A stretch of DNA of 39,343 nucleotides from Candidatus Magasanikiibacteriota bacterium. Its GTDB lineage: Bacteria; Patescibacteriota; Patescibacteriia; Magasanikbacterales; UBA922. Position 1 is the first letter of the stretch; each line of letters opens with the position of its first letter. The stretch is taken from the NCBI GenBank assembly GCA_023246555.1, contig JAHFIC010000004.1, positions 1 through 39,343 of the forward strand, written 5' to 3'. The position numbers and the translations under genes are program-made. The notes below the pieces were generated by a model. The model made no database searches, was not told the origin of the DNA, and worked only from the letters and a program-made list of their open reading frames with translations. Positions 25,645-27,496 of this stretch are shown here, one piece after another.

Positions 25645-26964
25645 ATGATGCAGAAACTTCTCGAACAACTCGCGGCAACCCCTGTCGCCTACATAGCGCG
25701 GGATATCGAACGCGCGCTTGGACTTACGCTCCCGACGAGAGGATATTGTATTGTCTCAAATGCAACCGCCTTTGCCAAGAAAATTGCCAATGGATCTGAT
25801 GACGCGCTCCTCATCCCCTCCGAGCATCCGCTTGATACCGAAGAGCTTCTGCGGCATGAACTGACAATGCCCTTTCTGCGCAAGCATGGCATTCGCCGCG
25901 TCGTTGTGTTTAAAAACACATCGCACATCGAACGCGCCGCGTCTGCTCTGGGATTAGAGCTCCTCAATCCGCCGGCAGATATTTCAAAAATAGTGGAAGA
26001 AAAAATATCTCAAGTGCGGTGGCTTGGGGAACTTGCCACTTATCTCCCGCCGCACACCATAACCACGTGCAAAAAGCTTGAATGGACTGGCACCGACGTG
26101 ATCGTGCAATTCAATCACGCGCATACCGGCGATGGTACGCTTCGCCTGACATCAAAAGAAACGATGCGCGCGCTGGCCGAACAATTTCCTGATCGCGACG
26201 TGCGCGTGATGGATGTGGTCAATGGTCCGACGTTCACCAATAATAATGTTGTCGCGCGAGACGCCGTACTGTTTGGAAATGTGAATTACCAAATCACTGG
26301 CCTCACCCCGTTTACCGATCGGCCGTTTGCCACGGTGGGAAACGATTGGGGGCTCGCGGAACGTCTCTTGCCGGAATCGGCGAGAGCGACATACACCGAA
26401 ATGGTCGCGACGATCGGTAATCAGTTACGGCAGAGCGGCTGGCGCGGGCTCTTCGGTGTGGACGTGATGTACGATGAAGACAAGAAAAAACTTTTTCTCA
26501 TCGAAATCAATGCGCGTCAACCCGCGTCAGCGACGTTTGAATCACAATTACAGCACAGCCATCGGCTATCGGCCAAAAGTCCCGCACACTGCGGGACCCC
26601 GCCCGAGGGCGGTGGCCAAAAGTCCCGCACACTGCGGGACCCCGCCCGAGGGCGGTGGCTGAAAGCCATAACAATCTTTGAAGCCCACCTGGCGGCGTTG
26701 TTGGATCTGCCGCTTGGTGATAAAACCTTGGTCACGATCCACGACGGAGCGCAATTGGTGAGACGAATCAGAGATGATGAATCAAAAATGACGGATATAT
26801 CCGAAAAAATCGAAAAGCTGAAGGCAGCAGGATTGACGGTCATGCGCTATGACAACACCGAGCCTGGTCAAGACGTGCTCCGCATCCAAAGCGAGCGTTC
26901 ACTCATGGAGTCGCATCATAAATTAAATGAGCGTGGGCGGCTGATCCAAAGCATGGTGTCGTAA
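25645..26964 (+). CDS. ATP-grasp domain protein (preATP-grasp plus ATP-grasp-like)
   Basis: GLFGVDVMYDEDKKKLFLIEINARQPASATFE is the typical ATP-grasp C-terminal signature. Likely start ATG 25645 (MMQKLLEQL) rather than 25609. Confidence 0.7.
   Translation: MMQKLLEQLAATPVAYIARDIERALGLTLPTRGYCIVSNATAFAKKIANGSDDALLIPSEHPLDTEELLRHELTMPFLRKHGIRRVVVFKNTSHIERAASALGLELLNPPADISKIVEEKISQVRWLGELATYLPPHTITTCKKLEWTGTDVIVQFNHAHTGDGTLRLTSKETMRALAEQFPDRDVRVMDVVNGPTFTNNNVVARDAVLFGNVNYQITGLTPFTDRPFATVGNDWGLAERLLPESARATYTEMVATIGNQLRQSGWRGLFGVDVMYDEDKKKLFLIEINARQPASATFESQLQHSHRLSAKSPAHCGTPPEGGGQKSRTLRDPARGRWLKAITIFEAHLAALLDLPLGDKTLVTIHDGAQLVRRIRDDESKMTDISEKIEKLKAAGLTVMRYDNTEPGQDVLRIQSERSLMESHHKLNERGRLIQSMVS
26571..26656. 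repeat. Tandem 2 x 43-bp palindrome-containing repeat inside the ATP-grasp ORF
   Basis: GGCCAAAAGTCCCGCACACTGCGGGACCCCGCCCGAGGGCGGT at 26571-26613, exactly repeated at 26614-26656; flanked 5' by GCCATCG|GCTATCG heptamers. Confidence 0.95.
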
Positions 26965-27429: not shown

Positions 27430-27461
27430 GAAAAAAGTCCCGCGGCAACCGACACGGGACT
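27430..27461 (-). terminator. Intrinsic terminator of the 38-aa ORF
   Basis: Minus strand: AGTCCCG ... CGGGACT then TTTTTTCTTC. Confidence 0.7.
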
Positions 27462-27496
27462 CCGAGTGAGCTGTGCGCCTCCGCGCTCCCCTATTA

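Follow-up and report, generated by a model that had tools for sequence, protein, structure and literature searches.

Palindromic repeats that are translated as part of host proteins have so far been described chiefly as a peculiarity of Rickettsia, joined by intragenic repetitive extragenic palindromes (REPs) in some other bacteria. Rickettsia palindromic elements (RPEs; Ogata et al. 2000) are palindromic, lie in frame in many genes and, according to passages in PMC10969869 and PMC3767692, are longer repeats of ~100-150 bp. REPs of the GTAG and CGTC types also occur inside genes, with uvrABCD and other repair genes among their hosts (Di Nocera et al. 2013; PMC3733652), and the bacterial miniature inverted-repeat transposable elements (MITEs) and repeat units (ERIC/RU, RUP, NEMIS), small and non-autonomous, may contain open frames and be found within genes (PMC2759123). 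For Patescibacteria, our search of the open-access PMC literature, which does not extend to subscription journals, turned up no description of coding palindromes. Here we describe a 36-bp palindromic core that stands as a tandem pair inside an ATP-grasp-like gene on contig JAHFIC010000004.1 of a Candidatus Magasanikiibacteriota bacterium (39,343 nucleotides, hereafter the window) and recurs in other genes of the same genome.

The palindromic core and its copies

The conserved unit is the 36-bp core; the exact 43-bp repeat of the window is this core plus a 7-bp spacer, and the corresponding unit in uvrC (contig C48) measures 50 bp, or 36 + 14. The core reads TCCCGC-loop-GCGGGA and then CCCCGCC-loop-GGCGGTGG, with TCCCGC and GGTGG at its ends, and forms two hairpins when folded as single-stranded DNA. 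Its G+C content is 81%, against 50% for the window; its length equals 12 codons, and all six frames are free of stops. The first-pass annotation of the window had described a duplicated, exact 43-bp element with two hairpins per copy, read in two different frames within an unbroken ATP-grasp open reading frame (ORF), and each part of this description was borne out. The exact tandem copies lie at 26571-26613 and 26614-26656, both inside the ORF. Core copy a (26580..26615, plus strand) has hairpins at 26579-26597 (stem of 8 bp, loop of 3 nt) and 26599-26612, and core copy b (26623..26658, plus strand) has hairpins at 26622-26640 and 26642-26655. The two copies are translated in different phases, as SPAHCGTPPEGGG and then KSRTLRDPARGRW, and the frame stays open from 25645 to 26961. 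A single 43-bp copy would shift the frame, 43 not being divisible by 3, and the reading computed with one copy removed runs into an immediate stop; the frame of this gene therefore depends on both copies.

The genome is a 770-kb draft of 56 contigs, 94.7% complete. A covariance model of the core, built from six variants, finds 15 copies in it at E<=1.5e-4 and two more at E 0.003-0.004, which together occupy 15 loci on nine contigs. The first hairpin (19 nt) is likewise found on other contigs at <=2 mismatches, while a reversed control gives zero matches; together with the core copies found by the model, this indicates that the recurrence is not due to chance. The possibility, raised in the first-pass annotation, that the element occurs nowhere else is thus removed by 14 further loci in its own genome. 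At 11 of the 15 loci the element is intragenic or at a gene end, always in frame. By Pfam and NCBIfam names, the intragenic hosts are the ATP-grasp-like protein and UvrC, with two copies each, and, with single copies, a UvrD-type helicase with a PD-(D/E)XK nuclease domain, UvrB, GlyRS, cysteine desulfurase, CarA, a methyltransferase and an O-antigen ligase-like protein; PyrC and a membrane protein carry the insertion in their C-terminal tails. Of the four intergenic loci, one follows directly on the stop of an lgt-like gene (as judged from the frame), two lie upstream of nusA and of a superoxide dismutase gene, respectively, and the fourth comes after a gene on contig C51; these names come from by-eye reading of the sequence.

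It seems likely to us that this is a dispersed, non-autonomous, selfish mobile palindromic element that works as an RPE does, the window holding two tandem copies of it. The element would insert at the DNA level, within genes as well as between them, and the insertions that survive would be those in protein loops, linkers or tails that preserve the frame. A core of 12 whole codons that is open in all six frames makes the frame easy to keep. Movement may follow a hairpin-dependent, single-stranded DNA route, driven either by a transposase supplied in trans, whose gene is no longer present or escapes detection, or by copying of the element during replication or repair, and to the host protein the insert would be nearly neutral. 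Repeat expansion between short direct repeats on either side is the probable origin of the tandem pairs in the ATP-grasp-like gene and uvrC.

Since the tandem repeat is exact and the assembly is a 56-contig draft, the copies might instead have been collapsed or misjoined, an artefact that would bear on the exact copy number in the ATP-grasp-like gene. We regard this as highly improbable: the element stands in distinct contexts on nine contigs, the frames are open at all intragenic copies, and diverged copies exist.

An Rfam search returned only a chance-level match (E 1, far under the gathering score). A DNA-uptake-sequence reading was ruled out, the copy number being far too low. A second, longer dispersed repeat occurs at C14:11045 (L119), C16:6506 (L124), C22:6084 (L120) and C33:12416 (L121); it has only the first hairpin, GTCCCGCC-GGCGGGAC, in common with the core, carries long flanks of its own (for example, AAAATGGGGTTGCTTTAGGGAGTGAGCACGCTGGGCGAACGACCGTGCCAGACAGG) and looks like a different family.

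Insertion sites, flanks and orientation

Homologs lack the insert at all five sites compared (ATP-grasp, UvrC, UvrB, GlyRS and cysteine desulfurase). For UvrB and for cysteine desulfurase, the best solved homolog is without exactly 12 residues (36 bp) at the element, and a solved GlyRS homolog has a 10-residue gap at the same position. In the ATP-grasp-like protein the loop from FESQLQ to TIFEAHL spans 39 residues, compared with a median of 11 (range 3-23) in 29 relatives, and the UvrC loop preceding RIEGYDIS spans 40 residues, compared with a median of 14 in 29 relatives. These shorter homologs indicate that the element entered preexisting genes, in loops or linkers. They also settle a second doubt voiced in the first-pass annotation, that homologs might carry the same peptide, since the 29 ATP-grasp homologs from related genomes are all without it. 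Phases 0, 1 and 2 are all in use among the intragenic copies, and the resulting peptides are unrelated (for example, HRPRAGSRTLRD, ATALGGVPSAGGK and PPPSGGVPQTAG), which argues that the conserved object is the DNA palindrome and not a peptide.

The sequences bordering the copies bear on a different account of their origin, in which the copies do not move as single units: heptamers of the GATAGCC and TTCTATT types would expand in loops by slippage, and the palindrome would arise or spread only by recombination or template switching between heptamer tracts. Near-identical, recent copies do have heptamer-like direct repeats alongside (GATAGCG, GATAGTC, GATAGCC), some other copies are bordered by TTCTATT-like sequence, and the same heptamer type flanks several copies on both sides. 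Moreover, the methionyl-tRNA formyltransferase gene (fmt; C18:3306-3331, L093) contains a bare in-frame heptamer array (GCTATCG/A) that codes for SYRLSAIGYQL, and heptamer-like coded inserts such as STVKSQ and NKEQRT are found in the UvrC of relatives. However, no heptamer can be made out beside the copies in uvrB, glyS and the cysteine desulfurase and methyltransferase genes, and the net gain in the uvrB and cysteine desulfurase genes is exactly the 36-bp core, so that we consider slippage of heptamers an unlikely source of the copies. The heptamers themselves may be targets, by-products or partners of the element. Older copies in general are without a recognisable flank, and their sequence has drifted.

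The choice of hosts and the orientation of the copies could also be taken as signs of selection, in which case the hairpins would act in RNA or DNA (on mRNA stability or translation pausing, or as nucleoid or recombination sites) and there would be a reason why genes of genome maintenance are preferred. The RNA of 26560-26670 folds strongly (-72.8 kcal/mol; shuffled sequences, -44.6 with sd 3.4; z -8.3). Three of the 11 hosts are uvrB, uvrC and the UvrD-type helicase, with a rough P of 0.0008 under random placement by gene length, a value that assumes the sizes of uvrA and mfd and a coding density of 90% and that, calculated by hand, rises to ~0.015 when the helicase is left out; the enrichment of repair genes is suggestive only. 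Repair genes are also recurrent REP targets in other bacteria (PMC3733652), and the 10-to-1 orientation bias given below fits a selected element as well. Set against these points, the hosts are otherwise unrelated, older copies drift in sequence, the position relative to gene ends is not conserved, and the loci number just 15; a selected function thus appears to us quite improbable.

Three observations weigh against the selfish, mobile element that we favor. At all but one of the 11 intragenic loci, 10 in number, the core points the same way relative to its gene (p ~0.01 in a sign test by hand), a bias not expected under plain neutrality. No constant target-site duplication was seen, the flanking direct repeats measuring 13 bp on each side at the C18 and C26 loci, ~7 bp at some loci and being absent at others. 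The Y1 (IS200/RAYT-type) transposase family PF01797 was not found in this 94.7%-complete genome by a search confined to that family, whose controls were positive in 5 of 14 genomes.

The host gene in the window (25645..26964, plus strand) encodes an ATP-grasp-like protein of 439 aa and ends with a stop codon at 26962-26964. Its match to Pfam ATP-grasp_3 (PF02655) is weak (E 7.8e-4, under the Pfam cut-off); homologs occur in 69 of the 92 genomes searched, its own counted, with identity of up to 55%. The extra peptide amounts to ~30 residues inside 26549-26668, and an AlphaFold prediction of the protein from single-sequence input is uninformative, with a predicted local distance difference test score of 37. 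Around and between the cores, all on the plus strand, lie the left flank CATCGGCTATCGGCC (26560..26574), a heptamer-like GGCTATC repeat of a type also seen beside other genomic copies, and three 7-bp spacers read from the sequence: CCAAAAG at 26573..26579, CCAAAAG again at 26616..26622 and a diverged CTGAAAG at 26659..26665. The immediate neighbors of the host gene are murB and, on the opposite side, the gene of a PEBP-family protein; a family-4 glycosyltransferase gene (mraY-like) lies farther along. A terminator-like hairpin around AAAGTCCCGCGGCAACCGACACGGGACT (27434-27463), 3' of the PEBP-family gene, is unmatched by the element model.

Palindromic inserts in related genomes

A 25-mer of the element, with two mismatches allowed, has zero matches in 94 related genomes, and an exact 23-mer has none in 85,462 species genomes or the viral contigs of IMG/VR, collections that may not include its own genome. 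The covariance model does find weaker relatives of the element in six related genomes, at least one of them (in G007) in frame inside a gene.

Palindromes unrelated to it occupy the same loops of the ATP-grasp-like protein and UvrC in related genera. The ATP-grasp loop of genomes G044 and G041 holds a different palindrome, a PHPNPPLIKGRE-type sequence that occurs four times in G041. In G020, the single uvrC (L079) carries four different palindromic inserts with an open frame, and a UvrA-like ORF (L148) has at least two repeat-like inserts, its frame also open; UvrC of G076 has three inserts. The UvrC inserts are enriched in inverted repeats: 12 of 22 (the copy described here included) reach a stem score >=8, compared with 4.3% of control segments. 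One G020 palindrome has 26 matches in that genome, and 9 of 10 further copies inspected lie inside long ORFs, whose products, named by eye from the sequence, include UvrA, Dus, TatD, QueA and glycosyltransferases. The presence of other in-frame palindromes in these relatives indicates that Rickettsia-like in-frame palindromes occur well beyond Rickettsia. Two short palindromes of type GGACAGGTCGCGACCTGTCC were also observed in separate loops of one UvrC of genome G005 (L070).

It is conceivable, and we put it forward tentatively, that the insertion of several unrelated kinds of palindrome, in frame, is a general protein-shaping force in this bacterial family, with a preference for nucleotide-excision-repair genes and a hairpin-dependent spread that proceeds without the usual REP transposase. 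With so many independent insertions, one can ask by what route such elements spread, what lets proteins accommodate them and whether their frequency in repair genes exceeds chance.

Comparison with described palindromic families

Like the MITEs and repeat units of the ERIC/RU, RUP and NEMIS kind, the element is a small non-autonomous repeat within genes; unlike them, it is much shorter, and neither the terminal inverted repeats of a parent insertion sequence nor a constant target duplication was seen. It also resembles intragenic REPs, these being 20-40 bp palindromes that occur as singles and dimers, some of them in coding genes and often in uvrABCD or other repair genes. The core, however, has neither a GTAG nor a CGTC tag, and most of its loci are intragenic, not intergenic as for REPs. 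Since both tags are missing and the Y1 transposase was not found, we do not file the element as a REP. The elements of G020 (TGTCATTGCGAGG...CAATGACA) look nearer, by resemblance, to the CGTC and RPE-4/6/7 type, which have an ATGAC motif in common.

The element also has features in common with RPEs, the families being compared here as they are described. In both cases, palindromic families lie in frame within many unrelated genes of a reduced genome, and the element group at a given site, or close to it, may differ between related genomes. The hosts, too, recall those of RPEs, with an excinuclease subunit and an O-antigen ligase here and QueA in the relative G020. The element is a dispersed palindromic repeat with two hairpins (17 copies, 15 loci) and stands in frame in preexisting genes (11 loci, with homologs free of the insert at five sites). 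It differs in being read in all three phases, in its host organism and in length, the core measuring 36 bp against ~100-150 bp for RPEs; on account of this shortness we do not file it as an RPE. The Rickettsia parallel drawn in the first-pass annotation therefore stands as a way of working, an in-frame palindrome in many unrelated housekeeping genes, and falls as a matter of membership. Set beside the described systems, this is a distinct, much shorter and untagged family in the reduced genome of another lineage, whose related genera use different palindromes, up to four of them in one uvrC.
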